From Bradyrhizobium xenonodulans (GTDB lineage: Bacteria > Pseudomonadota > Alphaproteobacteria > Rhizobiales > Xanthobacteraceae): a stretch of DNA of 64,000 nucleotides. Below the pieces are notes generated by a model. It was not told the DNA's origin. It searched no databases and saw only the letters and a list, made by a program, of their open reading frames with translations. The stretch lies in assembly GCF_027594865.1 (NCBI RefSeq), contig NZ_CP089391.1:2820501-2884500 (forward strand), written 5' to 3'. How positions within the stretch are numbered: the stretch's first letter is position 1; each line of letters starts with the position of its first letter. Below are positions 34,216 to 56,298 of this stretch, in pieces. The position numbers and the translations under genes are program-made.

Positions 34216-34842
34216 TCAGAACCGCTTCGCCATGTCAGCGAGACGGCGATGGGCGGTGTCGCGGGCAGCGCGGATCGGCTCGGTTGGACCCACCGTCGGT
34301 CCGATCGGCACGAAGCGGACATCGCGGACGCCGATGAAGCGGAGCGCCTCGCGCAAATAGGGCGTCGCCATGTCGATGCGGCCCCGGTTCATGCCGGTGG
34401 CAAAGTCGCCGCCCGAGGCGAGGATGACGATGGTCGGCCGGTCCTTCAGCAGGGGAAGATAACCCTGCGCCGGATCGAAGCGGAATGTCAGTCCGGGCTG
34501 GATGACGATGTCGAACCATTGTTTCAGCTTGTAGGGGATGCCGAAATTCCACATCGGCGTCGAGATCAGCACGCGATCGGCCAGTGAGAAGCGCAGCGCG
34601 ATCCGCTCGGCTTCGGCAAAGCTGTCCCGCTCCGCGTCATTGAAGGCCTGCGCCTTCATGCGCGCATATTTGGCTTCGACGATGGGGCCGGCAAACTCCG
34701 GCATCCGTTCGCGCCAGAGATCGGCGACATCGATGTCCCAGTCGGGCCGTGCCTGGCGAAAGCCGTCAAGGAAGACGCGCGCGCCGGCACTCGATTCGGA
34801 GTCGGGGCGCGGCGAGCAGGAGAGATGCAAAAGCTTCGCCAC
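34216..34842 (-). CDS. FMN-dependent NAD(P)H oxidoreductase (azoreductase/flavodoxin-fold)
   Basis: A 208-residue flavodoxin-like protein. LLHLSCSPRPDSESS (residues 4-18) is the FMN phosphate loop, and PMWNFGIPYKLKQWFD near residue 99 is the signature of azoreductase/NQO-type enzymes that bind the flavin ring and transfer hydride to quinones or azo compounds. Last gene of the long leftward operon, 3 bases after the SMP-30/isochorismatase fusion. It could supply reduced flavin or reduce a quinone formed by the molybdenum hydroxylase pathway. Confidence 0.88.
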   Translation of the reverse strand: MAKLLHLSCSPRPDSESSAGARVFLDGFRQARPDWDIDVADLWRERMPEFAGPIVEAKYARMKAQAFNDAERDSFAEAERIALRFSLADRVLISTPMWNFGIPYKLKQWFDIVIQPGLTFRFDPAQGYLPLLKDRPTIVILASGGDFATGMNRGRIDMATPYLREALRFIGVRDVRFVPIGPTVGPTEPIRAARDTAHRRLADMAKRF

Positions 34843-34845
34843 CGC

Positions 34846-36423
34846 TCATCCCAGCGCTCTGATGACGGCGTCGGCACGGGTCACGATCGCGACGTTCTGC
34901 ATGGCAAAATTGATCGAGGCGGAGTGCCAGTCGGCGTTCATGGTCGAGCAGCAGTCCTCCGGTACGATCATGAAATAGCCCTTGTCGGCGCCGGTGCGCG
35001 CGGTGTGCTCGACCGACATGTTGGTCCAGGCGCCGGTGTTGATGATCATGTCGCGACCGGTGGCTTTCAGGATCGTCTCCAGCCGCGTGCCTTCCCAGGC
35101 GCTCATGCGCATCTTCTCGACGACGAAATCGCCGGGTCGCGGCTCGAGGCCCGAGACCGGCGCGGCGCCCCAGCTGCCGCGCACCATCGCCTTGCTGTCG
35201 ACGAGACCTTCGAACAGCGGCGCATTCAGCGTCACGCCGGGGGCGCCGGGCTCGACCACGAACCAGACATGGACGATGGCAACACCGCGCGCCCGCGCGG
35301 TCTCCGCGAGGCGGCGGACATTCTCGACGACGTGCTGCTGCTTGGCGTGCCCAGGCGCGCCTGACTCGGCGAAGGCGCCACCATCCATGATGACGTCGTT
35401 CTGAAGATCCTGGATGATCATGGCGCAGCGATTTGGATCGAGCCGCATTTCGCCGTCGGCAAGGATCGGCGCTGCGGCCGCGGGACCCGCGCTTGGGGCT
35501 CCGCCGCTGCTGCGCCTGCCGCTCATATAGGGCTCATGGCGCGGCCCGGCCTTGGTCGGGATGGCGTAGACCGAATGGGTCGAGGTCAGATAGAGCGTGC
35601 GGAAGTCCGGCCCGCCCCAGGCGAGGTTGGCGACCATCTCGGGGACGCGGAGCTTGCCCAGCAGCTCGCCGCGCGGCGAGTAGACCCAGACGCCGCCGGG
35701 CGCAGTGACCCAGACGTCGCCGTGCTGGTCGCACTTCATGCCGTCGGGCAGGCCGGCCTCGAGCTCGGAGCGGATGCCGCTTGCGAATACCCGGGCATTC
35801 GACAGCGTACCGTCGGCGTTGACGTCAAACACGCGGATCAGCGCCTGTACGGTGTCGTTGACATAGAGCAGCGTTTCATCGGGCGAGAAGCACAGCCCGT
35901 TCGGCTGGTCGAACAGGTTGCGGTCCACGACGAGCTTCGGCTCGCCGCCGGGCACGACACGATAGACACCCTGGTAGCCGAGCTGGCGCGGCCGCTCGAC
36001 GCCATAGACCGGCATGCGGCCATACCAGGGATCCGAGAAATAGATCGCGCCGGACGAGTGCACGCAGACGTCGTTGGGGCTGTTGAGCTCCTGTCCCCCG
36101 AAGTGCGAGGCCAGCACCTCGCGCCGCCCGTCGGGCCGTTCGCGGATCAGCGATGACGTTGCGTGCTCGCAGACGATCAGGTTGAGCTCGGCGTCATAGG
36201 TCATGCCGTTGCATTTGTTCGACGGGCGCTTGACCTCGGCAACGCCGCGCCGCGCATCCCAACGCCGGCGCACGTCGCCCGGCATGTCCGAGAAGAGCAG
36301 GTAATGATCGACGGGATGCCAGATCGGCCCTTCCGTGAAGTCAAAACCCGTGCCGACCTGCGCGACCGGCGCGTAGGGGTCGATCAGCGTCTCGAATTCG
36401 GAGCGCAAGGTGACGTGAGTCAT
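34846..36423 (-). CDS. SMP-30/gluconolactonase - isochorismatase-like fusion protein
   Basis: A 525-residue two-domain hydrolase. Residues about 1-300 form an SMP-30/regucalcin six-bladed propeller with the metal ligands in FTEGPIWHP (E), SPNDVCV (N) and LPDGMKCD (D). After a glycine/alanine/proline linker (about 305-325), residues about 330-525 are isochorismatase-like, with the catalytic aspartate in AMIIQDLQND and lysine in VVEKMRMSAW. The usual catalytic cysteine position (TN-x-C-VE) reads TNMSVEH, a serine encoded by TCG at 35014-35016. So the second domain is not a standard cysteine amidase; some family members act without cysteine. Start at 36423 (MTHVTLRSE) chosen because upstream sequence is unrelated. 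Likely lactone opening plus a second hydrolysis. Confidence 0.88.
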   Translation of the reverse strand: MTHVTLRSEFETLIDPYAPVAQVGTGFDFTEGPIWHPVDHYLLFSDMPGDVRRRWDARRGVAEVKRPSNKCNGMTYDAELNLIVCEHATSSLIRERPDGRREVLASHFGGQELNSPNDVCVHSSGAIYFSDPWYGRMPVYGVERPRQLGYQGVYRVVPGGEPKLVVDRNLFDQPNGLCFSPDETLLYVNDTVQALIRVFDVNADGTLSNARVFASGIRSELEAGLPDGMKCDQHGDVWVTAPGGVWVYSPRGELLGKLRVPEMVANLAWGGPDFRTLYLTSTHSVYAIPTKAGPRHEPYMSGRRSSGGAPSAGPAAAAPILADGEMRLDPNRCAMIIQDLQNDVIMDGGAFAESGAPGHAKQQHVVENVRRLAETARARGVAIVHVWFVVEPGAPGVTLNAPLFEGLVDSKAMVRGSWGAAPVSGLEPRPGDFVVEKMRMSAWEGTRLETILKATGRDMIINTGAWTNMSVEHTARTGADKGYFMIVPEDCCSTMNADWHSASINFAMQNVAIVTRADAVIRALG

Positions 36424-36445
36424 CGGTCGATATCCTGAGGTCAGG

Positions 36446-37294
36446 TCAAGCCGGGAACCAGTTGCGCGCAGGCAGGGATTGCACGATCGGTCCGGGGACC
36501 TGATCGTGCAGCCGCCCCACGACATTGCCGCCTTCGATCTTGGCGGGGCGATCGTGCACCGGCAGCAGATAGCGCGAGTTGCTGAGCAGCTTCTTGATCG
36601 AGGCCTTTTCCGCGCGCTTGCTGGTGCCGTGATTGCCCGTCGTGCGCGGCTCCCAATCGTGGATCTCGTTGAAGGGCGTCACGATCTGGTCGTTGAAGTC
36701 GTAGATGACGTCGCCGCAGATCGTGGCGATGCCGTCGGCGGTTTCGACGATGACGTTCATCGAGCCCTCGGTGTGGGCGTTGGCGGCGTCACAATAGACG
36801 CCGGGCATCAGCTCGATCGGGCCGGTGATCTCGAGGTCGAGGAAGCGCAGCGCGCTCTTGGTGTGCAGGCGGTCGATCAGATGCTTGATGTCGGGCGCCG
36901 GATATTGCGGATGCATCAGGCCGGAGACGGAATATTCGAGCTCCTTGCGGTTGAGGACCACGGTCGTGTTCATCGGAAACAGATCGTCCTTGCCGGCATG
37001 GTCGATGTGCAGATGGGTGTGACAGACGAAGCGGACGTCGCCCATGCGCACGCCGTGGCGCGCGAGCTGGTTCTCGATCATGTTCTCGTGGTACTGAAGG
37101 CCGCGCATACCCAGCGTCTCCATGATCTGGTTGGAGCGATAGCCGGTGTCGACCACGACCGGATATTTGCCGCCGAGGATCAAAAAGCCGAGCGTGAGGA
37201 CGCGGCGGGTGCGGCCGCAGTCGCGACCGAGCACCAGAAAGCTCGATTCCAGCTCGATATCGCCGTAGTCCAGGATCTTGATCTCCAGCGCCAT
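36446..37294 (-). CDS. metallo-beta-lactamase-fold hydrolase (N-acyl-homoserine-lactonase-like)
   Basis: A 282-residue dinuclear zinc hydrolase. The metal motif HTHLHIDH spans residues 92-99, with a later histidine (NAHTEGSMN), aspartate (ICGDVIYD) and histidine (VPVHDRPA-like) completing the site. Length and pattern are those of the AHL-lactonase subgroup, which opens lactone or related rings. No secretion signal. It lies 22 bases upstream of the SMP-30/isochorismatase gene in the same operon. In this setting a role in opening a heterocyclic or lactone intermediate is more likely than quorum quenching, but that is an inference. Confidence 0.88.
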   Translation of the reverse strand: MALEIKILDYGDIELESSFLVLGRDCGRTRRVLTLGFLILGGKYPVVVDTGYRSNQIMETLGMRGLQYHENMIENQLARHGVRMGDVRFVCHTHLHIDHAGKDDLFPMNTTVVLNRKELEYSVSGLMHPQYPAPDIKHLIDRLHTKSALRFLDLEITGPIELMPGVYCDAANAHTEGSMNVIVETADGIATICGDVIYDFNDQIVTPFNEIHDWEPRTTGNHGTSKRAEKASIKKLLSNSRYLLPVHDRPAKIEGGNVVGRLHDQVPGPIVQSLPARNWFPA

Positions 37295-37322
37295 TCGTTG
37301 GCCTCCCTATGTTTCTTGTCTG

Positions 37323-38207
37323 TCAAAGCCGGTAGACGCGCGTGGCGGTGCCTCTGAAGATCGCGTCCTGCTGCTCGGTGCTCAGCGGCGCAGCGGCCGC
37401 GCGAAACGCGGCGACGAGCTCGCGGTAGCTGGTCCACAATTTCTCGATCGGAAAGTTGGAGCCGAACAGGCAACGCTCGGCGCCGAAGATCGTGACGGTG
37501 TCGGCCACGATGGCCGCGATGTGCGCGAGGTCGTTGCGATGGATGAAGGTGCCGAGCCCGGAGAGTTTCGAGACCACGTTCGGGCAGGCCGCAAGCCGCG
37601 CCATCCCGGCGCGCCAGGCCGCGCGCCCCGCGGGTGAGAGATCTTCCAGCATGCCGGCATGCTGGAGGATGAAGGTCACCTCGGGGCAGGACTCCGCAAG
37701 CCGCGCCGCATCCGGCATCTGCGGCGTAAAAACCTGGAGATCGAAGCTCCAGCCGTAATCGGCGAGGTACGCGATGTTGCGGCGAACCGCGGGATCGACG
37801 CAAAGATCTGGCTTGGCCGCGAAGCGATAGAGTGGGTTCTCGTGCCAGTGCAGCTGCATCCGCGCGCCGCGTACCAGGGAATAGTGCTTGAGGCGGTCGA
37901 GCTGCGGGCGCACGTCTTCGACGGCAAAATTGGCATAAGCGACGATCGCGTGGGGCCAGCCGTGGTCTTCGGCGGTCTCTTGCACCCACGCCGTCTCATC
38001 CTCGAAACGATCATTGGCCCAGTTGGTCTGGACGTAGACTGACCGGGTCACGCCGGTGCCCTTGAGATCGTCGAGATACTCCTGGATCGGATAATCGCGC
38101 CGGATCGGCTCGTAGGGTCCGAAGATGCGGGGCTGCATGGGGCCGGTCAGCCAGGGCAGGTCGGCCTGCCGCCAGATGTGATGATGCCCGTCGACAATCT
38201 CGGTCAC
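37323..38207 (-). CDS. amidohydrolase 2 family (PDC lactonase-like) protein
   Basis: A 294-residue TIM-barrel hydrolase starting at GTG 38207 (VTEIVDGHHHIW), within the 4-base overlap with the VWA gene. The DGHHHIW opening is the metal-binding HxH of the amidohydrolase_2 family. Later ligands are the histidine of FILQHAGM near residue 177 and the aspartate/asparagine region at LFGSNFP near residue 245. Members include 2-pyrone-4,6-dicarboxylate lactonase and L-fucono- or rhamnono-lactonases. It likely hydrolyses a ring intermediate. Substrate unknown. Confidence 0.87.
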   Translation of the reverse strand: MTEIVDGHHHIWRQADLPWLTGPMQPRIFGPYEPIRRDYPIQEYLDDLKGTGVTRSVYVQTNWANDRFEDETAWVQETAEDHGWPHAIVAYANFAVEDVRPQLDRLKHYSLVRGARMQLHWHENPLYRFAAKPDLCVDPAVRRNIAYLADYGWSFDLQVFTPQMPDAARLAESCPEVTFILQHAGMLEDLSPAGRAAWRAGMARLAACPNVVSKLSGLGTFIHRNDLAHIAAIVADTVTIFGAERCLFGSNFPIEKLWTSYRELVAAFRAAAAPLSTEQQDAIFRGTATRVYRL

Positions 38208-39325
38208 GCAACTCTCCTTCGTCCCAGTGCCAGTACATGCGCAACGATCGACGCGCTCGAGCCGCCGTCGACGAGGTCGTCGACATGGCGCGCGATCGCA
38301 ATGAGTCCTTCGGTCTGCGGGCGGAAACCCGGTCCGGTCGCGAGCGGCGTCAGCCAGCTCACGCGCCAGGCCCGCCGCGACAGCTTTGCCACGGCGTCGC
38401 GCAGCGCATCGATTTCGCCGCGCTCCAATCCGTCCGAGATCACGACCACGGCTGCGCCGCGCGCATAGCCGCCGAAGCGGGGCACCGCGAGGAAGGCCTG
38501 CAGCGCATCGCCGATGCGGGTGCCGCCGTCCCAATCGCTGACGAGGTGCGCGGCCGCGTTCAGCGCCTGCTCGCGGCGCTTCAGCCGCAGCGCGCGGGTG
38601 ACACGGGTCAGCCTTGTGCCGAAGGTGAAGACCTCGACATTGGGCGCGGCCTGCACCAGCGCATGGGCGAGCTTCATGTTCTCTTCGGTCCGGCTCTTCA
38701 TCGAGCCGGAGACGTCGATCAGCAGCAGGAATTTTCGCGGGCGCTGGCGCCGCTTCATGTGACCGAGCCGCAGGATCTCACCGTCGCTGCGGACGGAGTC
38801 GCGTAAGGTGCGGCGGAGATCGGCGAAGGGCCCGCGGCGGGCCCGCATGCGGCGATGGCCGCGCCGTCGTGGCAGGCGCCGCGGCGCCTCGCGCGCCAGG
38901 CGGCGCAGTGCGTCGGTCGTCGACAGCTGAGCAAAACGGCGCTCGACGAGTGCTTCGGTGCGGGTTGCGGTCAGGCCGGATTCGTTGGCGTCATCGGACA
39001 GCAGTGGCTCCTCGTCGCCGCGGCCCTCTTCCTGGAGCCGGACGGTCTCGTCGTCTTCGCCATCGTCGACGCGCTCGATCGCCTCGCTGCCGCGGAAGTG
39101 CAGATCGAACAGCCGGTCGAAAGTGGCGCGGCGCTCGGGTGGCGGGGCGAGGGTGGCCAGCGCTGCCTGCCTGATATCCCCGAGGTCGCGCGGGCCCAGC
39201 AGCTCGATCGCGGTGAGGAACGCGGTGGTCTGCTCCGGCGCGACGGCAAAGCTGTTGGCGCGCAGCAGTGCGACAAAGGACACGAAGACGCGGGCGGCAC
39301 GCGGAAGCTGGGGTTCGGTGCTCAT
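38204..39325 (-). CDS. von Willebrand factor A domain protein (CoxE-like)
   Basis: A 373-residue cytoplasmic protein. The N-terminal half is charged with an acidic stretch (DDGEDDETV) and an arginine-rich stretch. The C-terminal VWA domain has a MIDAS metal site in LLIDVSGSMKS near residue 205, followed by the threonine/aspartate positions (DWDGGTRIG). CoxE proteins act with the AAA+ protein CoxD to mature the molybdenum cofactor site of CO-dehydrogenase-type enzymes. Gene order here (molybdopterin subunits, MoxR/CoxD-like, VWA) is the same, so a maturation role for the adjacent hydroxylase is likely. Overlaps its neighbours by 4 bases on each side. Confidence 0.9.
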   Translation of the reverse strand: MSTEPQLPRAARVFVSFVALLRANSFAVAPEQTTAFLTAIELLGPRDLGDIRQAALATLAPPPERRATFDRLFDLHFRGSEAIERVDDGEDDETVRLQEEGRGDEEPLLSDDANESGLTATRTEALVERRFAQLSTTDALRRLAREAPRRLPRRRGHRRMRARRGPFADLRRTLRDSVRSDGEILRLGHMKRRQRPRKFLLLIDVSGSMKSRTEENMKLAHALVQAAPNVEVFTFGTRLTRVTRALRLKRREQALNAAAHLVSDWDGGTRIGDALQAFLAVPRFGGYARGAAVVVISDGLERGEIDALRDAVAKLSRRAWRVSWLTPLATGPGFRPQTEGLIAIARHVDDLVDGGSSASIVAHVLALGRRRVA

Positions 39326-40203
39326 GCGGTTGCCTCCGCGAGCATGGCGTCGAGCCGGGGCGAGATGAAGTGCAGGTCCTCCTCGTCCTTGAGCGCCACG
39401 CCGATCGAGCGCTTGAAGGCGTCGGGCCAGCGCGCGCCGCCCTTGTGCAGCAATGTTGCCGCTTCGGCCCAATCGACGGCCTCGGCGATGCCCGGCGCCT
39501 TGCTGAGCGGCTCGCGCCGGAGCTTTCCGACGGCCGCAACGACGGCGCGCGCGGTTGCTTCGGCAACGCTGGAGGCCCGCAACATCACGATCCGTGCCTC
39601 GCGTTCTTCCGTGGGGTAGTCGATCCAGTGATAGACGCAGCGGCGGCGCAGCGCCTCATGCAGGTCGCGCGTCCGGTTCGAGGTCAGCACGACGACAGGC
39701 CGTTCGGTGGCGCGCACCGTGCCGCGCTCGGGGATTGAGATCTGGAAGTCGGAGAGGAATTCGAGCAGGAAGGCCTCGAACTCCTGGTCGGCGCGGTCGA
39801 TTTCGTCGATCAGCAGCACGGTGGAATCAGGCGCACGTAGTGCCGCCAGCATCGGCCGTTCGATCAGAAACGTCTCGCCATAGATGTCGATGCTCTCGTC
39901 GCCGGCCTGGCGGATCGCGAGCATCTGGCGCGGATAGTTCCACTCGTAGAGCGCCGCAGAGGCGTCGATGCCCTCATAGCATTGCAGCCGAATAAGCCGG
40001 CGGCCGAGCACGGCGGCGATGGCCTTGGCGGCTTCGGTCTTGCCGACGCCCGGCGCCCCCTCGAGCAGCAGCGGCTTGCCCAGCGCAAGGCCGAGATAGG
40101 CAGCCGTCGCAAGCCCCTCGTCGGCGAGGTAATAGGCCGCGCGCAGCGCTTTCTCCAGCGCCTCCGGACTGTCGATGCCGACGATGTTGCTGCGGACCGC
40201 CAT
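39322..40203 (-). CDS. MoxR-family AAA+ ATPase (CoxD-like)
   Basis: A 293-residue ATPase. Walker A is GAPGVGKTE near residue 51, Walker B LLIDEIDRAD near residue 130, and sensor-1 VVLTSNRTRDLHEAL near residue 170; the arginine finger region RRRCVYHWID follows. MoxR proteins are chaperone-like remodelers that work with VWA-domain partners to insert metals or cofactors. It is placed between the molybdopterin subunits and its VWA partner, with 4-base overlap to the latter. Confidence 0.92.
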   Translation of the reverse strand: MAVRSNIVGIDSPEALEKALRAAYYLADEGLATAAYLGLALGKPLLLEGAPGVGKTEAAKAIAAVLGRRLIRLQCYEGIDASAALYEWNYPRQMLAIRQAGDESIDIYGETFLIERPMLAALRAPDSTVLLIDEIDRADQEFEAFLLEFLSDFQISIPERGTVRATERPVVVLTSNRTRDLHEALRRRCVYHWIDYPTEEREARIVMLRASSVAEATARAVVAAVGKLRREPLSKAPGIAEAVDWAEAATLLHKGGARWPDAFKRSIGVALKDEEDLHFISPRLDAMLAEATA

Positions 40204-40215
40204 GGACGAAGACCT

Positions 40216-41238
40216 CTAGCGCCGCGCCTGCGGCCGCGCGCCGCCCTGGGCCTTGATCGCGCGCAGCACCTTCTCAGGTGTAATCGGCAGATCGTCGATG
40301 CGCACGCCGACGGCGTTGAAGATCGCGTTCGCCACGGCCGGCAGCACCGGGTTCGCACACATCTCGCCGGGACCTTTTGCGCCGAACGGACCATCGGGCG
40401 CAGGGCGCTCCAGCACCGCAATGTCATGCGGGCAGATGTCGCCGGGGCCCGGCATCAGATATTCGACGAAGTCGCGCGGGCCGTGCACGGGCTCGGGATA
40501 GTACGGCTCCGGCGTCTCGTAGAGCGCGTGGCTGACGCCCATCCAGGCGCCGCCGACGAGCTGCTGCTCGACCAGGCGCGGATTGAGCGCGCGGCCGAGC
40601 TCGTAGGCCGAGTCCATCCGCACCATCGCGACCTCGCCGGTCTCGTCATCGACATCGACCTCGGCGACGAGACAGGCATGGGCATAGCATGTGGCCGGCG
40701 ACATCTCGCCGGTTTCAGGATCGACATTCGAGAGCGGCACCAGGAAGATGCCGCGGCCGGAGATGGTCTTGCCCTGCTTGAATTGCGCCGCGATCGCGAC
40801 GTCCTTGGTCGAGATCGAGCGGTGCGGCGCGCCCTTGACGTGGATGTTGCCGCGGCCGTCGGTCTCGAGATCGGCGGCGTTGACCTCGAGCTCCTCGGCG
40901 GCCGCTTCCATCATCACGCCGCGGGCCTCGCGAGCCGCTGCCATCACGGCATTGCCGACCCGGTGGGTGCCGCGCGAGGCGAACGAGCCCATGCAATGCG
41001 GACCGGTGTCGGAATCCGCGGTGTCCACATAGACGTCCTCGACGGGTACGCCCAAGGTCTCGGCACAGATCTGGCGCGTCACCGACTTCATGCCCTGGCC
41101 CAGGTCGATCGACGACAGCGCGACGGTGAACTTGCCGCTCGGGTTGGAATGCACCAGCGCCTGGCTGGGGTCGCCGCCGAGATTCATGCCGATGGGATAG
41201 TTGATCGACGCGATGCCGCGTCCGCGATGCCGGGTCAT
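40216..41238 (-). CDS. molybdenum hydroxylase, C-terminal molybdopterin-binding subunit (NdhM-like half)
   Basis: A 340-residue polypeptide equal to the C-terminal part of a xanthine-dehydrogenase-type large subunit. It begins RGRGIASINYPIGMN, and contains the Mo-cofactor contacts SSIDLGQGMKSVTRQI and GSFASRGTH. The catalytic glutamate is in GAKGPGEMC near residue 302. It starts at the ATG directly after the stop of the preceding gene (TAGATG), with AGGAGG 9 bases upstream, so it is translated as a separate protein. In Eubacterium barkeri nicotinate dehydrogenase the molybdopterin subunit is likewise two proteins (NdhL and NdhM). It would hydroxylate an N-heterocycle or related carbon with water as oxygen source. 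Confidence 0.88.
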   Translation of the reverse strand: MTRHRGRGIASINYPIGMNLGGDPSQALVHSNPSGKFTVALSSIDLGQGMKSVTRQICAETLGVPVEDVYVDTADSDTGPHCMGSFASRGTHRVGNAVMAAAREARGVMMEAAAEELEVNAADLETDGRGNIHVKGAPHRSISTKDVAIAAQFKQGKTISGRGIFLVPLSNVDPETGEMSPATCYAHACLVAEVDVDDETGEVAMVRMDSAYELGRALNPRLVEQQLVGGAWMGVSHALYETPEPYYPEPVHGPRDFVEYLMPGPGDICPHDIAVLERPAPDGPFGAKGPGEMCANPVLPAVANAIFNAVGVRIDDLPITPEKVLRAIKAQGGARPQARR

Positions 41239-42834: not shown

Positions 42835-42846
42835 GGTCGCGTTCCC

Positions 42847-47975: not shown

Positions 47976-48809
47976 TTATCGCGCGCCGATCGCCTTGAAT
48001 TTGCGTACCTGGTCCGTCAACGCTTGCTCCACCGGAAGCCGCTCCATCGAGGAGGCGCCGTAGAAGCCGTGGCAGTAACGGGTGTTCTTCATGATGAAAT
48101 CGGCATCCGCGGGATCGGCGATCGGGCCGCCATGGGCGAGCACCAGAATGTCGGGATTGACGCTGAGCGCGGCGGAGGCCCAGGTGTCGATGCGCGCCGG
48201 GCAGTCCGTCAGTTTGAGCGCGGTCTGCGCACCGATCGTGCCGCCGGTGGTGAGTCCGAGATGGCAGACGATGATGTCGGCGCCGGCGATCGCCATCGCG
48301 GCGGCTTCCTTCTCGCTGAAGATGTAGGGCGTCGTCAGCATGTCCTTCTCGCGCGCCTTGGCGATCATGTCGATCTCCAGCGCGTAGGACATTCCGGTCT
48401 CCTCGAGATTGGCGCGGAAGACGCCGTCGATCAGCCCGACGGTCGGAAAGTTCTGCACACCGGCGAAGCCGAGCGCCTTGAGCTGGTCGAGGAACACATC
48501 CATGTCGCGGAACGGATCGGTGCCGTTGACACCGGCCAGCACCGGCGTCTTGCTGACCACGGGCAGCACCTCACCGGCCATCTCCAGCACGATGGCGTTG
48601 GCGTCGCCATAAGGCATCAGCCCGGCGAGTGAGCCGCGCCCGGCCATGCGATAGCGGCCGGAATTGTAGATCACGATGAGATCGACGCCGCCGGCTTCCT
48701 CGCACTTGGCCGACAGGCCGGTGCCGGCGCCGCCGCCGACGATCGGCTCGCCGCGCTTCGCCATCTCGCGAAACCGCTTCAGAAGTGTAGCGCGTTCAAA
48801 CCGGGCCAT
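47976..48809 (-). CDS. phosphoenolpyruvate hydrolase family protein (TIM-barrel, Tm-1 C-terminal-domain-like)
   Basis: A 277-residue TIM-barrel protein with [27 protein letters not shown] near the N-terminus, then [12 protein letters not shown] and [12 protein letters not shown]. This matches the PEP-hydrolase/TIM-barrel signal transduction family. The plant Tm-1 resistance protein carries this domain fused to a UPF0261 domain; here the two are adjacent genes, 3 bases apart. A role in a C3/C4 phospho-intermediate or in sensing is possible; the bacterial function is unknown. Confidence 0.85.
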
Positions 48810-48812
48810 CGG

Positions 48813-51029
48813 TCACCTCGCTAGTCTCCGGCGCGCCCCGGCGCGGCCGAACAGCGTTCGGAACGCGGTCACGATGGTCGAGGCGAACTCGGGATCGTTG
48901 ATGTTCTGCTTGACGCGGATGAGCTGGCGGTTGCCGGTCTGCCGCACCGTGCGCTCCAGCGCGCGGAGCAGGGCGGTGTCGGCCTCCGGGTCCCAAAATG
49001 GCTGGCCGCGGGCATCGAGCGCGGAAACGCCGCCCTCGGGCAGGAAGAAGCGCACCGGCCCGTCCATCTGGTTGAGCCGCTCGCCGATCCAGCGGCCCAT
49101 CCGCTCGTTCTCCTCCGCCGTGGTACGCATCAGCGTCACCTGCGGATTGTGGACGTGGAACTTGCGCCCGCGATAGCGCTCAGGGATCGTGTCGGGCGCG
49201 CCAAAATTGACCATGTCGAGCGCGCCGACCGAGCCGATATAGGGCACGCGGGTGCGGATGACCGCGCCAAAGCGGTCGTCCGTCGCCGGAAACACGCCGC
49301 CCATCAAGAGGTCGCAGATCTCGGTGGTGGTGAGATCGATCACGCCGGCAAGCTGGCCGGAATCGACCAGCTTTTCCATCGAGCGGCCGCCGACGCCGGT
49401 GGCATGGAACACGAGACATTCGAAGTCATCGCGCAGATCGGCTGCGATCTTCTGCACCGCCGGCGTCGTCACGCCGAACATGGTGATGCCGAGCGACGGC
49501 AGGGCGGCGCTGGACGAGCGTTCCCTGGCTTCGCGTTGGTCGAGCCGCGCCTTGACCATGCCTGCCATGGCGTTGGCGCCGTTCGACAGCACCGCGCGCG
49601 AGATCGAGTTCAGGCCCTGCACGTCGGTGACCGAATACATCATGGTGATGTCGGCCGGGCCGACATAGGGCGCGACGTCGCCGGAGGCGACCGACGAGAT
49701 GATCAGCTTTGGCACGCCGACGGGGAGGGTGCGCATGGCAGGGGCGACCAGCGACGCCGCGCCCGAGCCGCCCGCCGAGATCACCCCGGCGATATTGCCC
49801 TGGCGCCGCATCCAATTGGAGAATGCATCCGCCATCGCCGTCACCGCGACCCCGCGATCGGAGCCGAACACGGCCGAGCCGCCGCGGCCGTGGTTCAGGG
49901 CGATCTCCTGTGCGGAGACATCGCATGTTGCGTGCTTGCCACCGGTGGAGACATCGACCAGACGCGTGCGGAGGCCGCTCTCGGCGATGATGTCGCGGAT
50001 GAAGCGGAGCTCGGTGCCCTTGGTATCGAGTGTGCCGACGACCAGCACCACCGGCGCGCCGGACGTTTGCGCTGTCACCGGCTCACGCTTGCGCCGCGCG
50101 GTCTCGTCCAGGCGCGCAACTTGCGTCGACAGCGTGCGCGCTGCCGCTTCGATACGTCCGATCGGGACCGGCTGAGACCAGCGTGTCGGCGGCGAGGGGT
50201 TCGAAATGTAGATGCGGATCGGGCCGCTCGCGCGTGCGGGCTGTGGCGCCGGTTTCGCGTCGCCGCCGGCTGCGGGCGCATCGATGTCGGGCTCGAGCTC
50301 GGCATGAAGTCCGACTCCGAGCAGGCGCTGCTGAAGCTCGCGGTCGGCGGCGAGGCGCACGGAGTCGATGATGCGATTGATGCGGCCGTTGACCATGATC
50401 GCGACATTGCGTGAAATGGCGGTCGCGACGCCAATGTTCTGCTCGATCACAAGCACGGCCATGTCGCCGTCCTCGCCGAGCTGCAACAACATTTCTTCGA
50501 CCTGCGCGACGATGACAGGCGCGAGCCCCTCGGTCGGCTCGTCCATGATCAGCAGGTGCGGATTGGTCAGCAGCGCGCGCGAGATCGCGAGCATCTGTTG
50601 CTCACCGCCGGAGAGCTGGCCGCCGCCATGGTCCTTGCGTTCGGCGAGGCGCGGAAAGGTGTCGTAGATGCGCTCGACGGTCCAGGCACCGGACCGCATC
50701 CCGCCGGCAAGTCGCAGATGCTCGTCGACGCTGAGCGAGCGCCAGAGCCGGCGGCCCTGCGGCACATAGCCGACGCCGAGGCGCGCGATGTGAGCGGGCG
50801 GCCGCCGCGTGATGTCCTCGCCGCGGACCCGGATCGAGCCGCCGCTGACCGGGACGAGGCCCATGATCGCCTTGCACAGCGTGGTCTTGCCCATGCCATT
50901 GCGGCCGACCACGGAGAACACACCGGCATCGAGCGAGAGGTCGACGCCCTGGAGCGCGTGCGAATGGCCGTAATAGACGTCGAGGCCCCGGACCTCGAGC
51001 GCTGCTGCGGTACGGCGGGCCTCATTCAT
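48813..51029 (-). CDS. LivF-type ABC ATPase fused to a Tm-1-like (UPF0261) domain
   Basis: A 738-residue fusion. Residues about 8-245 are a LivF-type ATPase with Walker A GRNGMGKTT (42-50), signature LSGGEQQ near 140 and Walker B LLIMDEPT near 160. A proline/alanine-rich linker (about 250-320) follows. From about 322 comes a complete Tm-1-like domain beginning VLVVGTLDTKGTELRF, with the GGS(G)A and STGGKH nucleotide/phosphate-loop segments. That domain is a homologue of the N-terminal half of tomato Tm-1. No other ATPase of this type is seen in the cluster, so this protein must also serve as the LivF of the importer. Overlaps LivG by 8 bases. Confidence 0.88.
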   Translation of the reverse strand: MNEARRTAAALEVRGLDVYYGHSHALQGVDLSLDAGVFSVVGRNGMGKTTLCKAIMGLVPVSGGSIRVRGEDITRRPPAHIARLGVGYVPQGRRLWRSLSVDEHLRLAGGMRSGAWTVERIYDTFPRLAERKDHGGGQLSGGEQQMLAISRALLTNPHLLIMDEPTEGLAPVIVAQVEEMLLQLGEDGDMAVLVIEQNIGVATAISRNVAIMVNGRINRIIDSVRLAADRELQQRLLGVGLHAELEPDIDAPAAGGDAKPAPQPARASGPIRIYISNPSPPTRWSQPVPIGRIEAAARTLSTQVARLDETARRKREPVTAQTSGAPVVLVVGTLDTKGTELRFIRDIIAESGLRTRLVDVSTGGKHATCDVSAQEIALNHGRGGSAVFGSDRGVAVTAMADAFSNWMRRQGNIAGVISAGGSGAASLVAPAMRTLPVGVPKLIISSVASGDVAPYVGPADITMMYSVTDVQGLNSISRAVLSNGANAMAGMVKARLDQREARERSSSAALPSLGITMFGVTTPAVQKIAADLRDDFECLVFHATGVGGRSMEKLVDSGQLAGVIDLTTTEICDLLMGGVFPATDDRFGAVIRTRVPYIGSVGALDMVNFGAPDTIPERYRGRKFHVHNPQVTLMRTTAEENERMGRWIGERLNQMDGPVRFFLPEGGVSALDARGQPFWDPEADTALLRALERTVRQTGNRQLIRVKQNINDPEFASTIVTAFRTLFGRAGARRRLAR

Positions 51030-51804
51030 GGCCGCCTCCGAGATATAGCTCCTGCACTTCGGGGTCGGACTGGATCTCTTCCGGCAGGCCTTCCTTGAAG
51101 ATGCGGCCGTTGTGCATCATCGTCACGCTCTCGACGACACGTAGCGCGACATCCATGTCGTGCTCGATGATGATGTAGCCGATATGGGCCGGCAGCGAGG
51201 TCAGGATCTCGACCAGCTCGGCCCGCTCGGTCGGCGAGAGACCGGCGGCGGGCTCGTCGAACAGCACGAAGCGCGGCGCACCCGCGAGTGCCAGCGCGAT
51301 CTCGAGCTGGCGCTGCTGGCCGTGCGCGAGCTCGGCGACGCGCTGGTCCTTCACGGCGCTCAGATGCACGGCCTGCACCAGACTGTCGGCGGCGTGCATC
51401 AGCGCGTCGTTCTGCCCGGAACGCAGGAACGAGAAACGTCCGCGCGAGACACCGCGGCAGGCGAGGTAGACATTGTCCTGCACGGTAAGGCCGGGAAACA
51501 ATGCGGAGATCTGATAGGTCCGCCGCAGGCCACGCCGGATGCGCTCATAGGGCGGGAAATGCGTGACGTCCTCGCCGAAGAAGCGGATCGTGCCGGAGGA
51601 GGGCGGAAAGTCGCCGGTGATGCAGTTGAACAGCGTGGTCTTGCCGGCGCCGTTGGAGCCGAGCACGGCGCGCCGCTCGCCGGGACGCACGGTGATGGTG
51701 ACGTCGGTCAGCGCCGCCAGCGCGCCGAACAGCCGCGTCACGCCGCGCAGTTCCAGCGCGGCGCCGGCACCGACGGCGGAAAGACGCCGCGCGACGCTAT
51801 CCAT
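51022..51804 (-). CDS. livG: branched-chain amino acid-type ABC transporter ATPase (LivG)
   Basis: A 260-residue ATPase with Walker A GSNGAGKTT near residue 49, signature ELAHGQQRQLEIA near 160 and Walker B FVLFDEPAAGLSP near 182. Pairs with the LivF-type domain encoded by the fused gene downstream. Overlaps LivM and LivF-fusion genes by 8 bases each. Confidence 0.93.
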   Translation of the reverse strand: MDSVARRLSAVGAGAALELRGVTRLFGALAALTDVTITVRPGERRAVLGSNGAGKTTLFNCITGDFPPSSGTIRFFGEDVTHFPPYERIRRGLRRTYQISALFPGLTVQDNVYLACRGVSRGRFSFLRSGQNDALMHAADSLVQAVHLSAVKDQRVAELAHGQQRQLEIALALAGAPRFVLFDEPAAGLSPTERAELVEILTSLPAHIGYIIIEHDMDVALRVVESVTMMHNGRIFKEGLPEEIQSDPEVQELYLGGGHE

Positions 51805-52885
51805 GGCCGGACCCTCCGCCCGGACGGTCGGCTTGCCGACGTTGGCTCTGGCGCCAGCGCTGCCACAGGCCGATCACGCCGTCCGACGACCAGAACACGA
51901 TGGCGAGAAAGCCAAGCCCGATGAGGAGACGAAAGCGGTTGCCGTCGAGCCCGATCTTGACCAGGAAGTCGAGCGCGAAGGTCCGCAGCAGGACGAACAC
52001 CAGCGCGCCGATATAGGGGCCGACCGGACGGGTGATGCCCCCGACGACGGCGATGATGAGGACGTCGATGCACGCGCCGACGCTGACTGTGCCCGGCGAA
52101 ATCTGGCGATAGTTCCAGACCTGGAGTACGCCGGCGAGGCCCGCGATGAAGGACGCGACCGCATAGGCGGCAACACGGTGCGCGTTGACGTTGAAACCGA
52201 GTGCGGCCATGCGGCGCGGGTTGTCGCGCACGCCCTGCAGCGCCAGGCCGAACGGCGCGCGCGAGATGTAGTCGACCGCGAAGTAGCAGAGCGCGGCGAC
52301 TGCGAGCACGATGTAGTAGAAGGGGATGTCGGCGCGCCAGTTGACGCCCCAGAAATGCGGCGTCGCGACGTTGTTGATGCCGGTGTGGCCGTTGAAGATC
52401 GCCCAGTTCTGGTTGGTGAAGTAGTAGAACGCCGCGCCGATCGCGAGGGTGATCATGATGGTGTAGATACCCTCGGTGCGCACCGCGAGCGCGCCGCCGA
52501 GCGTGCCGAAGATGGTCGCAAGCGTCAGCGCCATCGGGACCGCCAGCCACCACGGCCAGCCCAGGCTGATATTGGCGTTGCCGCTGACACCGAACACCGC
52601 GACCATGTAAGCGCAAAAGCCGGCGATGGTGAGCTGCATCAGGCTGACCATGCCGCCATAGCCGGCCAGGAACATCAAGCTGAGCGCGATGGTGCCGAGG
52701 ATCAGGGTCGTCGCAAAGATCTCGATCAGGAAGAAGCCGTTGGCGATCAGTGGCATGATCAGCAGGATGGCCGCCACGATCCAGGCTGCGGGATTGTTGA
52801 CGTCCGGCCAGCCGCGCACGGCCGGGCGCTGCACCGCGGAAGTGGGCTTGTGAACCTGGATGCGGGCATCGTGGGTGACGGACAT
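51797..52885 (-). CDS. livM: branched-chain amino acid-type ABC permease (LivM)
   Basis: A 362-residue inner-membrane permease with about 9-10 hydrophobic segments. The family marks GYGGMVSLMQLTIAGFCAYM near residue 75 and ALQGVRDNPRRMAALGFNV near residue 220 are visible. A 40-residue N-terminal extension precedes the first helix. It is one base from the LivH gene and 8 bases into the LivG gene. Confidence 0.93.
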   Translation of the reverse strand: MSVTHDARIQVHKPTSAVQRPAVRGWPDVNNPAAWIVAAILLIMPLIANGFFLIEIFATTLILGTIALSLMFLAGYGGMVSLMQLTIAGFCAYMVAVFGVSGNANISLGWPWWLAVPMALTLATIFGTLGGALAVRTEGIYTIMITLAIGAAFYYFTNQNWAIFNGHTGINNVATPHFWGVNWRADIPFYYIVLAVAALCYFAVDYISRAPFGLALQGVRDNPRRMAALGFNVNAHRVAAYAVASFIAGLAGVLQVWNYRQISPGTVSVGACIDVLIIAVVGGITRPVGPYIGALVFVLLRTFALDFLVKIGLDGNRFRLLIGLGFLAIVFWSSDGVIGLWQRWRQSQRRQADRPGGGSGHG

Positions 52886-52886
52886 G

Positions 52887-53897
52887 TCAGCGCCTCGCCA
52901 GCAGGCCTTGCGGCCGAAGCGCCAGCACCAGCACCATGATCAGGAAGGTCACGACGATGGCGTAGGTCGGGATGTAGACCGAGCCGAGCTGCTCGGCGAG
53001 GCCGATGATCAGCGCGCCGAGCGCAGCGCCCGGGATCGAGCCCATGCCGCCGACGATCACGACCACGAGGGAGGCGAGCAGGAAGCGGATGTCCTCGCCG
53101 GGGGAGAGGGACTGGAAGGTTCCGCCGACGACGCCTGCGATGCCGGCAAGGCCCGCGCCGAGCGCGAAGACGAGCACGAAGACGATCTGGATGCGTACGC
53201 CGGTTGCGGCGAGGATGTCGCGGTCGTCGACGCCGGCGCGGATGATCATGCCGATCCGGGTGCGGTTGAGTGCGAGCCACATCGCGATGCCGATGATGAC
53301 GGACGCCAGGAAGATCACGAGCCGCACCAGCGGATAGCGCAGATACACCGGCTCCCCTGAGGATTTCACGGCGGTGATCAGCGGCAGCTCGATCGGGCCG
53401 ATCAGCCAGCTCGGCGTCTGGATCTGGTAGAAGTCGCCGCCGCAGGCCCACAGCATCAGATCGGCGAACACGATCGAGAGCCCGATCGTCACCATGGTCT
53501 GGCGCAAATCCTGGCCTTCCATGCGGCGGAAGACGAGGAGCTGGAGCAGGACGCCGACCAGCGCGGTCAAGATGAAAGCGACGATGAACGAGAGGATCCA
53601 GGACCCGGTCGAGGCGCTGATGGCATAGCCGACATAGCCGCCGAACAGATAGAGCGAGCCGTGCGCGAGATTGACGTTGCGCATCAGGCCGAAGATCAGC
53701 GTGAAGCCGCTGGCGACGAGGAAATAGAGGCCGCCGAGCGTGATGCCGTTGAAGAGCGCGTTGAGGAATACCCGCTTGCGGCCGATGGCCTCTTCGAGAC
53801 CGGGTGGCCACACCGCGAAGATCAGCCATAGCGCCACCGCGATCGCGATGATGACGATCAGAGCCCAGGCGGGATGGCGCTCGACAAAGCGGGTCAT
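52887..53897 (-). CDS. livH: branched-chain amino acid-type ABC permease (LivH)
   Basis: A 336-residue permease. LFNGITLGGLYFLVASGFTLIFG near residue 46 and the GMGSIPGAALGALIIGLAEQLG stretch near residue 280 are typical of LivH. With LivM it forms the channel of the importer. First gene of the near-continuous run down to 34216. Start at 53897 (MTRFVERHPAW) precedes the first transmembrane helix. Confidence 0.93.
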   Translation of the reverse strand: MTRFVERHPAWALIVIIAIAVALWLIFAVWPPGLEEAIGRKRVFLNALFNGITLGGLYFLVASGFTLIFGLMRNVNLAHGSLYLFGGYVGYAISASTGSWILSFIVAFILTALVGVLLQLLVFRRMEGQDLRQTMVTIGLSIVFADLMLWACGGDFYQIQTPSWLIGPIELPLITAVKSSGEPVYLRYPLVRLVIFLASVIIGIAMWLALNRTRIGMIIRAGVDDRDILAATGVRIQIVFVLVFALGAGLAGIAGVVGGTFQSLSPGEDIRFLLASLVVVIVGGMGSIPGAALGALIIGLAEQLGSVYIPTYAIVVTFLIMVLVLALRPQGLLARR

Positions 53898-54088: not shown

Positions 54089-54916
54089 TCAGGCGCGCAA
54101 AACCTTGGCCGCGCGGCGATAATCGGTCGGCGCCATGCCGACATTGGCGGCGAAGAAGCGGGTGAAACCGCTCTGCGAGGAGAAGCCGAGATCGAAGCCG
54201 ATATCGGCGATGGGCGCCTCGCTCGCCACCAGGGCCTCCAGCGCCTGCTCCATCATCAGCGTGTTGAGATAGAGGTGCGGCGTGACGCCGGTCTGGGTAC
54301 GGAACAGCCGGTAGAAATGCGGCCGCGACAGTCCGGATTCGCGCGCGATGGTGTCGAGCTCGATCTCGGCGCCGGGGCTCTCCGACATCATCTTGATGCA
54401 CTTGCGTACGCGAAAATCGGTGACCGAGCCGTTGGCGCGCGGATCGCGCGCAGTCGCCGCCTGCTGCCAGCTTTCGTCGTAGCAGATGTCGATCAGCCGT
54501 CTCAGCTCGCCATCGAGGCTGTTGAGCGAGGGTGCGCCGCACACCAGGGCGGCCGCGTGCCTGATCTGCCTGTCCAGCGCGGCCGACCGCGTGAGCTGGG
54601 TTCGGCCGAAGCGCAGGCGGTCGGCGCCGGGCGCATCGGGCGCGAACCACTCCGCATTGACATAGAGCACGAAGAAGACGGCGCCGCCGTCGAGATCGGA
54701 CGGCAGGAAATTGTGCGGCTCCCATGGATTGACCGCGACCACGGAGCCTTCAGTGAGCTCGTAATGACCATCGCTGACATCGATGCATGCGGAGCGTCCC
54801 CCGACATGGAAGATCAGATGACCTTCGCGATGTGCGTGGATGTTGAAGGGGCGGTTCAACTGATAGACCGTCGCCCGGCCAAAGCGGCCGTGGAAGACGG
54901 CGAGCGCCCGGCTCAT
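54089..54916 (-). CDS. AraC-family transcriptional regulator
   Basis: A 275-residue regulator with an N-terminal cupin-like effector domain (HAHREGHLIFHVGG, then the GSVVAVNPWEPHNF strand pair, about residues 28-80). A C-terminal double helix-turn-helix follows, with LDTIARESGLSRPHFYRLFR near residue 195 and the second one ending IADIGFDLGFSSQSGFTRFF near 250. It sits between the binding-protein gene and the permease genes on the same strand, so it very likely controls this locus in response to an imported compound. Confidence 0.92.
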   Translation of the reverse strand: MSRALAVFHGRFGRATVYQLNRPFNIHAHREGHLIFHVGGRSACIDVSDGHYELTEGSVVAVNPWEPHNFLPSDLDGGAVFFVLYVNAEWFAPDAPGADRLRFGRTQLTRSAALDRQIRHAAALVCGAPSLNSLDGELRRLIDICYDESWQQAATARDPRANGSVTDFRVRKCIKMMSESPGAEIELDTIARESGLSRPHFYRLFRTQTGVTPHLYLNTLMMEQALEALVASEAPIADIGFDLGFSSQSGFTRFFAANVGMAPTDYRRAAKVLRA

Positions 54917-54963
54917 GCCTTCCCTCCCAGAAGCTCTTGTCATTTTTTGGTAACGTCGAACAA

Positions 54964-55018
54964 CCGGGGAGAGAATGCAAGGGCGCTCGTGTCGCGCTCT
55001 TTGCAAATCTCTCCCCGG
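54964..55018 (-). terminator. strong inverted repeat after the binding-protein gene
   Basis: CCGGGGAGAGAATGCAA at 54964-54980 and TTGCAAATCTCTCCCCGG at 55001-55018 pair almost perfectly, with a 20-base loop. The structure lies 30-85 bases after the binding-protein stop and before the AraC gene. There is no clean T-run on the minus strand, so it may be a partial terminator or message stabiliser that keeps binding-protein expression above that of the permeases. Confidence 0.6.
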
Positions 55019-55047
55019 TCAGTCACGGCGTCGCTGACGCGACTACG

Positions 55048-56298
55048 TCAGTACTTCTTACATTCCGGTACTGTACGGCTTGGCAAACCGATCTTGGCGA
55101 ACACCGCGGGGTCGTAGCCCAGCGTCTGGTTGACGTTCGGGATCACCTTCACGACCTTGGAGAACAGTGCACCCTTGCCGTCGTCGACGACCTCGGTGAC
55201 GAAGTTGGTGCCGATCGCCTGGCGGTTGGAGTCGAGCTTGATCTTGCCGTTGGGAGCGTCGAGCTCGATCTTGGCGAGGGCTTCCTTGTACTTGGTCTGG
55301 TTGTTGGAGAGGTCGCCGTTGACCTGACGCAGCGCCAGGATCAGCGCCATGGTCGCGCCGTAATAGTTGGTGGCGAGCAGCGACGGGCTCGGGAAGCGCT
55401 TGTTCGGCGGGAAGGCGTCCTGATAGTCCTTCACGAACTTCTGCCAGCCCGGATCCTCCCAGGTGTCGGCCTGGCCGCTCGCGGCCAGCGTGCCGACCAG
55501 TGCGTTCTTGGCGTTGCCTTTGGACGACAGGATGGTCTGGTCGATCATGATCGAGCCGCCCATCAGATGCGCTTTGCCGCCGGCCTGCTGGTACTGGTTG
55601 AGGAAGTTGACGGCGTCGGCGCCGCCGAGGCCGAGATAGATCGCATCGACATCGTCGGGCAGGGCGGCGATGACCGAGGCGAAGTCCTTGGTGCCGAGCG
55701 GCACCCATTGGCGGTTTGTGACCTGTCCGCCCGCGCCGCAGAATTCGAGCACGAGGCCGAACACCTGAGTGTAGATGAAGGAATAGTCCTCGCCGACGGT
55801 CGCGATCTTGCGATACTTCTTTTCCTCATACGCGTATTTGCCGAGGCCCACCTGCCACTGCGCGCCGTCCATGTTGTAGCGGAAGAAGTTCGGAGCCGGA
55901 TCGACATAGGTCGTTTCCTGGGCACCCGAAGCGGCATTGACGAAGGTCAGCTCCGGATGGGTCTTGGCAAAGTTCTTGACCGCGATGCCTTCGTCGCCCG
56001 ACAGCGGCGACAGCAGGATCTGCACCTTGTCCTGCTCGATCAGCTTTCGTACGGCGCGGACGGCGGAGTCCGGCGTCGCGTCGGTCGAGGCGATGACGAA
56101 TTCGAGCTCCTTGTCGCCGACCTTCTTGCCGAGCACGTTGAGTGCGGTCTGGAAGCCGCGGATGCCGTCCTCGCCGAGCACGGTGTAGGTGCCTTCGAGC
56201 GTCGCCGTGACGCCGACCTTGATCTTCTCCTGTGCGAAGGCGGTGCCCGACAACAACAGGCTGCTCAACGCGATCAGTCCTAGACTGCCTTTCAACAT
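55048..56298 (-). CDS. ABC transporter substrate-binding protein (LivK/amide type)
   Basis: A 416-residue periplasmic binding protein with a clear signal peptide (residues 1-23, ending GTAFA-QE). Mature sequence opens IKVGVTATLEGTYTVLGED and has DKVQILLSPLSGDEG, and VAAIYLGL-like hinge strands, typical of type I periplasmic binding proteins for amino acids, amides or aromatic acids. The start at 56298 has GGGAGGAG at 6-9 bases. It supplies the ligand to the LivHMGF-type importer downstream. Confidence 0.93.
   Translation of the reverse strand: MLKGSLGLIALSSLLLSGTAFAQEKIKVGVTATLEGTYTVLGEDGIRGFQTALNVLGKKVGDKELEFVIASTDATPDSAVRAVRKLIEQDKVQILLSPLSGDEGIAVKNFAKTHPELTFVNAASGAQETTYVDPAPNFFRYNMDGAQWQVGLGKYAYEEKKYRKIATVGEDYSFIYTQVFGLVLEFCGAGGQVTNRQWVPLGTKDFASVIAALPDDVDAIYLGLGGADAVNFLNQYQQAGGKAHLMGGSIMIDQTILSSKGNAKNALVGTLAASGQADTWEDPGWQKFVKDYQDAFPPNKRFPSPSLLATNYYGATMALILALRQVNGDLSNNQTKYKEALAKIELDAPNGKIKLDSNRQAIGTNFVTEVVDDGKGALFSKVVKVIPNVNQTLGYDPAVFAKIGLPSRTVPECKKY

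Follow-up and report, generated by a model that had tools for sequence, protein, structure and literature searches.

The window analysed here is a stretch of 64,000 nucleotides from Bradyrhizobium xenonodulans (G000:C1:2820501-2884500, in an 8.28-Mb single-contig genome). Its minus strand carries, from position 56337 down to 34216, a run of 20 genes that are all open, with zero internal stops (Table 1). The run comprises a Liv-type ATP-binding cassette (ABC) importer with an AraC-family regulator, both parts of the Tm-1 family, a giant flotillin, two SRPBCC proteins, a split molybdenum (Mo) hydroxylase with a MoxR/VWA maturation pair, several hydrolases and a flavodoxin-fold oxidoreductase; the named families of these proteins exceed their Pfam cutoffs. 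With a binding protein, two permeases and two ATPases recognised by Pfam, the importer belongs to the HAAT (branched-chain) type. From LivH (53897) down to 34216, genes are spaced by -8 to +28 bases throughout, in agreement with a reading made earlier from the letters of this DNA (the sequence-only reading), which had described a same-direction run of twenty genes with tight spacing from 53897. The first two genes, encoding the binding protein and AraC, are set apart by wider gaps of 191 and 131 bases, and the tight run thus consists of 18 genes.

Table 1. Features of the locus, in gene order from its upstream end (window positions).
Feature	Position	Strand	Evidence
Liv-type periplasmic binding protein	55048..56337	-	Peripla_BP_6 165 bits; nearest solved chain 4zpj, E 1.7e-33
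AraC-family regulator	54089..54916	-	HTH_18, AraC_binding; ATG start
LivH-type permease	52887..53897	-	BPD_transp_2 124 bits
LivM-type permease	51797..52885	-	BPD_transp_2 108 bits
LivG-type ATPase	51022..51804	-	ABC_tran, BCA_ABC_TP_C
LivF-type ATPase fused to UPF0261 (Tm-1 N-terminal part)	48813..51029	-	domains and 3wry
NPxxPTRWSxxVP linker motif	50163..50201	-	linker alignment
Tm-1 C-terminal-type TIM barrel (PEP_hydrolase family)	47976..48809	-	PF09370 432 bits; 2p10 (Mll9387) E 5.5e-119
Giant SPFH/flotillin, 966 residues, long rod of 44-residue repeats	45049..47949	-	Band_7, Flot domains
SRPBCC protein 1 (SRPBCC1)	44601..45038	-	Polyketide_cyc2 103 bits
SRPBCC protein 2 (SRPBCC2)	44152..44601	-	Polyketide_cyc2 55 bits
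Mo hydroxylase FAD subunit	43330..44148	-	FAD_binding_5, CO_deh_flav_C
Mo hydroxylase [2Fe-2S] (FeS) subunit	42847..43323	-	Fer2_2 110 bits
MoN, Mo subunit first half	41239..42834	-	MoCoBD_1, Ald_Xan_dh_C; 3hrd_A E 2.9e-58
MoN proline-rich C-terminal tail, 82 residues	41242..41487	-	ends RFSSVFGTRRR (41242-41274)
MoC, Mo subunit second half	40216..41238	-	MoCoBD_2 198 bits; 3hrd_B E 8.7e-47
MoxR/MadB-type AAA ATPase	39322..40203	-	NF047784 271 bits, cutoff 475
VWA CoxE-type maturation protein	38204..39325	-	VWA_CoxE 166 bits; DxSGSM in 34/34 rows
Amidohydrolase_2 protein, L-fuconolactonase-like	37323..38207	-	Amidohydro_2 173 bits; NF052480 109 bits, cutoff 400
Metallo-beta-lactamase-fold (MBL), lactonase-like hydrolase	36446..37294	-	Lactamase_B; HTHLHIDH in 30/30 rows
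SMP-30/gluconolactonase fused to isochorismatase domain	34846..36423	-	SGL 194 bits, Isochorismatase 162 bits
Flavodoxin-fold oxidoreductase (gene 20)	34216..34842	-	Flavodoxin_2 140 bits

The locus is real, conserved and inherited as a unit. Anchored on the TIM-barrel protein, a set of 80 named loci was assembled, nearly all of them titled Bradyrhizobium, and in 79 the order and single strand are kept with no internal gene loss within the available stretch. Beyond the genus, 31 full loci were defined by the presence of flotillin and MoN within at least 14 kb of sequence, some of them in other orders; in each, the genes are collinear and share one strand. Gene order is thus conserved far more than chance would allow. 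Both SRPBCC genes and those for the FAD and FeS subunits, MoC, MoxR and VWA occur in every one of the 31, followed by LivF-UPF0261 and the amidohydrolase (30 each), the SMP-30/isochorismatase protein (28), the TIM barrel (27) and the MBL protein (25). One or two internal genes are missing in five of these loci (L086, L099, L106, L127 and L145), and some other absences reflect the ends of the stretches, as in L098 and L126. Two full loci lie on named plasmids, one of Yoonia and one of Shinella zoogloeoides, the latter lacking the MBL gene. The flavodoxin-fold gene is found in none of the 31, and the conserved unit therefore amounts to 19 genes or fewer, which amends the set of twenty in the sequence-only reading.

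Among 146 Bradyrhizobium genomes sampled, MoC is present in 112, one copy having an internal stop and one being truncated at a contig end. All 112 also carry the TIM-barrel gene (identity at least 74%), the two starts being 7550-8004 bases apart on one contig in 106 genomes and on separate contigs in the other 6; four further genomes of the genus have the TIM-barrel gene without MoC. In wider samples, in each of which the window's own genome is counted, MoC occurs in 49 of 297 genomes and 21 of 122 genera of the order, in 7 of 337 genomes for the class and in 14 of 349 for the phylum. In genome G244 some 170 kb separate the AraC-Liv-Tm-1 block from the flotillin-Mo block; both are retained, and the coupling therefore rests on more than adjacency. 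For 11 operon genes, pairwise correlations between distance matrices range from 0.50 (LivM-amidohydrolase) to 0.95 (MoN-MoC), with 0.90 for flotillin and MoN. The proposal of a single import-and-degradation locus is thus sustained by conservation within and outside the genus and by the split arrangement in G244, the gene blocks being conserved together across Bradyrhizobium and its relatives.

A few individual loci deserve mention. A MoC copy with a TGA inside, at G046:C1:7033753-7034631 in a genome of the genus, is probably broken. The record titled Frankia sp. RB7 (L002:1-20831) holds an operon 92-99% identical to the window, and its title or its contig is therefore probably wrong. In L102 and L105-L108 (family f18) a gene for an EamA-type transporter adjoins or separates the two Mo-subunit genes, and in L106-L108 a PRAI-fold gene lies close to the place of Tm-1.

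Seventeen other loci hold a reduced core, in which the FAD, FeS, MoN and MoC genes are always present, MoxR, VWA and the amidohydrolase are each present in 12, and SRPBCC1 is present in 6. No Liv, Tm-1, flotillin, SRPBCC2, MBL or SMP-30 gene was found in any of the 17. Of the hydrolases, the amidohydrolase is thus the one most closely tied to the Mo enzyme. The reduced cores extend to an actinobacterium (L143) and a haloarchaeon (L142), where, on a plasmid (L142:11328-16434), the split Mo hydroxylase occurs with a cyclase and an SRPBCC gene. Transporters beside these cores differ: according to Pfam, adjacent binding proteins in L117, L121 and L143 belong to the sugar-type families Peripla_BP_4 or SBP_bac_1 and L125 has an SSF transporter, while L142 has another ABC type.

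The Mo hydroxylase has the composition of the xanthine oxidase family, with FAD, two [2Fe-2S] and Mo domains and the GxKGxGE motif. The FeS subunit retains CxxxxCxxC and CRC in 26 of 26 alignment rows and CG(Y/F)C in 25, and the G(A/G)KGxGE motif of MoC, whose Glu we take to be catalytic, is kept in all 51 rows. In each of 127 loci the Mo subunit is divided at the border between MoCoBD_1 and MoCoBD_2, which rules out a frameshift as the origin of the split. Among solved structures, the two Mo-subunit chains of nicotinate dehydrogenase (3hrd_A and 3hrd_B; NdhFSLM of Eubacterium barkeri) come closest, and they are divided at the same point: residue 3 of MoC aligns to residue 2 of 3hrd_B. The split thus follows an arrangement that is old and already known. 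Unlike that enzyme, the locus adds the MoxR/VWA pair, a long docking-like tail, flotillin and lactonase-like hydrolases. In the cox cluster of aerobic CO dehydrogenase, CoxMSL is accompanied by CoxD and CoxE, and also by CoxG; the locus shares with it the Mo, FAD and FeS subunits, a MoxR-type ATPase, a VWA_CoxE protein and SRPBCC neighbours. At the place of the CoxL Cys loop motif, however, MoN carries an RGFG stretch, and the curated CoxL model (TIGR02416) scores 118.7 and 179.8 bits on the two Mo halves, against a cutoff of 991; by that score MoN and MoC fall outside CO dehydrogenase, although split subunits do score low on a model of the whole length. The best model of the FAD subunit is glyceraldehyde dehydrogenase, at 123.7 bits with a cutoff of 350.

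MoN continues beyond the Mo core in a tail of 82 residues, 24% of which are proline. The tail was compared with the presence of flotillin in the 120 of 127 loci with at least 5 kb of upstream sequence. Where flotillin is present, the tail has at least 70 residues (105 of 105 loci, 74 from the genus or named relatives and 31 from outside), and where flotillin is absent it has fewer than 30 (15 of 15). Seven loci with short upstream stretches were left uncounted: L088 has flotillin and a long tail, L089, L093, L102 and L116 have long tails, the place of flotillin falling outside their available sequence, and L130 and L131 have short ones. RRR closes every one of the 110 long tails, and in 109 of them RF occurs within the final 11 residues. 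The pattern RFx(S/T)xxGxRRR fits 100, RFISGxRRR fits six, and four deviate further (L001, L002, L088 and L096). Among the 1478 open reading frames of L086-L188, the motif is exclusive to MoN. In a MoC tree of 51 rows, which include 15 of the 17 reduced loci as well as two loci whose MoN lies outside the available sequence (L095 and L101), the full-set rows fall on one side of a single branch (100/99).

The conservation of an 11-residue end, when the linker before it varies, suggests a binding peptide. The cargo signal of encapsulins has a similar shape, a short C-terminal peptide that is conserved and attached through a flexible linker. Encapsulin cargo-loading peptides (PMC7355545) provide the comparison system; in contrast to encapsulins, the 20 genes include no encapsulin shell gene, and the proposed shell would be the SPFH protein. 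MoxR, VWA and SRPBCC1 are unlikely partners of the tail, since they also occur where it is missing. By co-occurrence, flotillin and SRPBCC2 fit best as candidate partners, and LivF-UPF0261 nearly as well.

The clients of bacterial flotillins are, to our understanding, mostly unclear. The protein of the locus has Band_7 and Flot domains and a predicted N-terminal membrane helix (residues 2-33), as expected of an SPFH/flotillin protein. Its rod has a period of 44 residues (4 x 11), with an identity of 0.338 at lag 44, and in its orthologs (n = 34) the distance from a fixed VRTG mark to the end varies from 831 to 1115 residues. A structural model (mean predicted local distance difference test score, pLDDT, 62.7) places helices at residues 201-389, 410-632 and 640-852, mostly at pLDDT 70-85, with dips below 60 near 390, 630 and 650; its SPFH part is unreliable. 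According to PMC11260169, human flotillin (FLOT1/2) assembles from 44 subunits into a cage 22 nm in height, with the same combination of SPFH and Flot C-terminal domains and a long helical rod. The wall helix given there has 186 residues, compared with about 650 residues predicted to be helical, with short breaks, in the protein described here, so that a cage several times taller than the human one is imaginable. A stomatin dome is reported to enclose two membrane proteins (PMC12407830). The present gene, unlike its human counterparts, is placed in a catabolic operon; a second, shorter flotillin-like gene lies elsewhere in the same genome (C1:3991306). Conceivably, though we regard this as rather doubtful, the giant flotillin could build a tall cage or fence at the membrane, to which the tail end and a linker motif would draw the Mo hydroxylase and the importer, such that substrate would enter a reaction chamber directly.

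That linker motif lies in the LivF-UPF0261 fusion, in which ABC_tran spans residues 26-166, UPF0261 residues 327-495 and UPF0261_C residues 511-726. The linker varies in length and letters around a constant NPxxPTRWSxxVP stretch, with NPxxxTRW in 32 of 34 rows and NPxxx(T/N)RW in all 34. The stretch lies outside the match to tomato Tm-1 (3wry, E 3.7e-98), the nearest structure, which begins at residue 319. The Tm-1 family is associated with plant virus resistance. Both of its parts, UPF0261 and the TIM barrel, are present here as the sequence-only reading had it, although its "Tm-1 pair" must be amended in that the UPF0261 half is fused to LivF. According to PMC5028733, on plant Tm-1 and the bacterial UPF0261 and TIM-barrel genes, plants join the two parts to each other, whereas here the N-terminal part is joined to an ABC ATPase by a motif-bearing linker; 3wry and 2p10 are the nearest structures. 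In Azospirillum (L147:10752-13323) the UPF0261, TIM-barrel and SRPBCC genes form a unit of their own, a hint that the Tm-1 pair and SRPBCC act jointly. In G384 a second, free-standing Tm-1 pair adjoins ABC-transporter ATPase genes (L191:6278-8771).

Four different hydrolases had also been proposed; the domains are found, yet the SMP-30 and isochorismatase domains form a single fused protein. L-fucono-1,5-lactonase is the best model for the amidohydrolase of the window and for those of three core loci, at 82.9-120.6 bits with a cutoff of 400. The nearest solved chains of the MBL protein are lactonases, and its scores on AiiA (51 bits), 4-pyridoxolactonase (48) and AttM (39) are far below the cutoffs. 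In the SMP-30 domain the residues E, N, N and D, which we presume to have the roles familiar from SMP-30 proteins, are retained in 31 of 31 rows. Cysteine amidohydrolases of the RutB/BiuH type use an Asp-Lys-Cys triad. In the isochorismatase domain the Asp and Lys motifs are present in 31 of 31 rows, and Ser stands at the place of the Cys in 30, one row being gapped and none having Cys; because of this replacement, the domain is not a cysteine amidohydrolase of the usual kind.

Further enzymes are added in relatives. Where, outside the genus, the binding protein and AraC are within one stretch (16 loci), an Fe-type alcohol dehydrogenase lies between them in 14, the exceptions being L170 and L186. 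The best NCBIfam model for all seven of these proteins that were scored is 4-hydroxybutyrate dehydrogenase, and the Shinella protein alone exceeds the cutoff (523.7 against 500). An aldehyde dehydrogenase follows in L146, L179 and L181; that of L146 best matches alpha-ketoglutaric semialdehyde dehydrogenase, at 488 bits against a cutoff of 770. Such neighbours fit better with lactone opening followed by hydroxy-acid oxidation than with lactam chemistry. A resemblance may be seen to blcABC, the gamma-butyrolactone catabolism system of Agrobacterium, in the lactonase-like MBL protein and, in some relatives, the 4-hydroxybutyrate-dehydrogenase-like and aldehyde dehydrogenases. The 39 bits of the MBL protein compare with an AttM cutoff of 390, however, and the Mo hydroxylase and importer are extra.

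We tentatively favour, as a plausible account, a co-inherited catabolic operon in which the Mo enzyme yields a lactone-type product that lactonases open, the enzyme being held on a flotillin scaffold. The Liv-type importer, probably under AraC control, would take in a small cyclic compound, which the nicotinate-dehydrogenase-type Mo hydroxylase, matured by MoxR and VWA, would oxidise to a lactone or a lactone tautomer. The amidohydrolase would open this product, and the lactonase-like MBL and SMP-30 enzymes would be additional ring-openers. In most of the non-Bradyrhizobium relatives examined, oxidation of the hydroxy acid so formed would fall to the 4-hydroxybutyrate-dehydrogenase-like enzyme, sometimes with the aldehyde dehydrogenase. 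The giant flotillin would serve as a scaffold at the membrane, recruiting the Mo enzyme through the tail end of MoN (of the RFSSxxGxRRR type) and perhaps also the importer ATPase through the linker motif. What the sequence itself shows is the gene set with its order and co-inheritance, the fusions, the split and the tail and linker motifs; lactone chemistry, docking, the class of substrate, and the parts played by the Tm-1 pair and the Ser-type isochorismatase domain are inferred.

Several observations weigh against this account. All lactonase-model scores lie well under their equivalog cutoffs. Six of the seven scored Fe-type alcohol dehydrogenases are under the 4-hydroxybutyrate dehydrogenase cutoff, and in Bradyrhizobium the gene is absent from its place between the binding protein and AraC. 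One of the 80 named loci, L074, is without the amidohydrolase. The distance-matrix correlations compare operon genes with one another, without an outside control gene. The tail and the flotillin module appear, by the branch in the MoC tree, to have been gained together once, and their association therefore counts as one evolutionary event; moreover, SRPBCC2 follows the pattern of the tail exactly (31 of 31 full against 0 of 17 reduced loci), and LivF-UPF0261 nearly so. The flotillin model has a predicted template-modelling score of 0.23, and structure prediction for MoN was uninformative (pLDDT 33.7).

The sequence-only reading had leaned towards N-heterocycles, whose catabolism would have the Mo enzyme hydroxylate the ring beside the nitrogen, with a lactam or imide for the hydrolases to open. 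The nicotinate dehydrogenase chains nearest to the Mo subunits agree with such a route, as does the occurrence of amide hydrolases among the amidohydrolase and isochorismatase folds. The Ser in place of the nucleophilic Cys, the lactonase model best matched by the amidohydrolase, the three sugar-type transporters and one SSF transporter checked by Pfam beside the reduced cores, and the 4-hydroxy-acid-type dehydrogenase added in relatives all speak against it, and we consider this route rather unlikely; the earlier leaning is not supported. Slightly less likely still is oxidation of a sugar or deoxysugar, in which an aldose or lactol would become an aldonolactone, to be opened by lactonases and passed to a keto-acid route. 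The glyceraldehyde dehydrogenase match of the FAD subunit is in keeping with this scheme, and a sugar-like substrate stays in view because of the sugar-type binding proteins beside three cores and an FAH protein in the Yoonia locus (2,4-didehydro-3-deoxy-L-rhamnonate hydrolase, 412 bits, cutoff 500). That FAH gene, however, occurs in L146 alone among 191 loci, which counts against our favoured account as well; the full operon has a Liv-type importer; and no sugar-acid dehydratase was recognised among those neighbouring genes that were classified, a part of all neighbours.

The scaffold may be questioned separately from the chemistry. Flotillin could act in general membrane order or quality control, with the MoN tail binding another partner such as SRPBCC2 or LivF-UPF0261, and to this we give appreciable weight without thinking it probable. 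The co-occurrence of the tail with SRPBCC2 and with the Liv/Tm-1 block is as strict as that with flotillin or almost so, and bacterial SPFH genes are found in varied operons (PMC13086221). In G244, on the other hand, flotillin is still grouped with the Mo genes, and the Liv/Tm-1 block occupies another part of the genome. Degradation of lactone signals (quorum quenching) or detoxification in place of catabolism seems very improbable: the MBL protein is weakly AiiA- and AttM-like, but its scores are far under the cutoffs, and a five-part importer and a Mo hydroxylase would be superfluous for that purpose.

A scan for consensus sequences found no minus-strand promoter-like site in 34000-53900, and internal promoters were dropped as candidates on that basis; terminator-like sites there, on both strands, are at chance level (9 against 8.8 expected). 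No Rfam family reached gathering level in 33000-58000, and conservation plots of the regions upstream of LivH and AraC show no more than short conserved patches. A candidate gene on the opposite strand (53978-55117) was rejected, codon-position GC and the helix-turn-helix domain supporting the minus-strand AraC frame. For the binding protein a GTG start was chosen; an alternative upstream TTG would extend it to 56385. Downstream of the run, the next gene is on the plus strand and ends at 34211. Elsewhere in the window, translations judged by eye indicate a binding-protein and TRAP-type-permease-like pair with a divergent LacI-like gene (24807-28931).

No description of the full gene set was found in the open-access literature searched, which agrees with the earlier statement that no pathway with this set had been described. 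What is chiefly new is the putative link between flotillin and the Mo hydroxylase, drawn from sequence association only. If the tail does dock there, bacterial flotillins would gain a defined enzyme client and a recruiting signal, and the cage, if real, would be an undescribed catabolic compartment built on flotillin, equipped with a cargo signal of its own and widespread among Alphaproteobacteria. The locus also puts the Tm-1 family into a metabolic setting. Whatever the role of the scaffold, the operon is a conserved catabolic unit, its Mo subunit being present in 112 of the 146 Bradyrhizobium genomes sampled.

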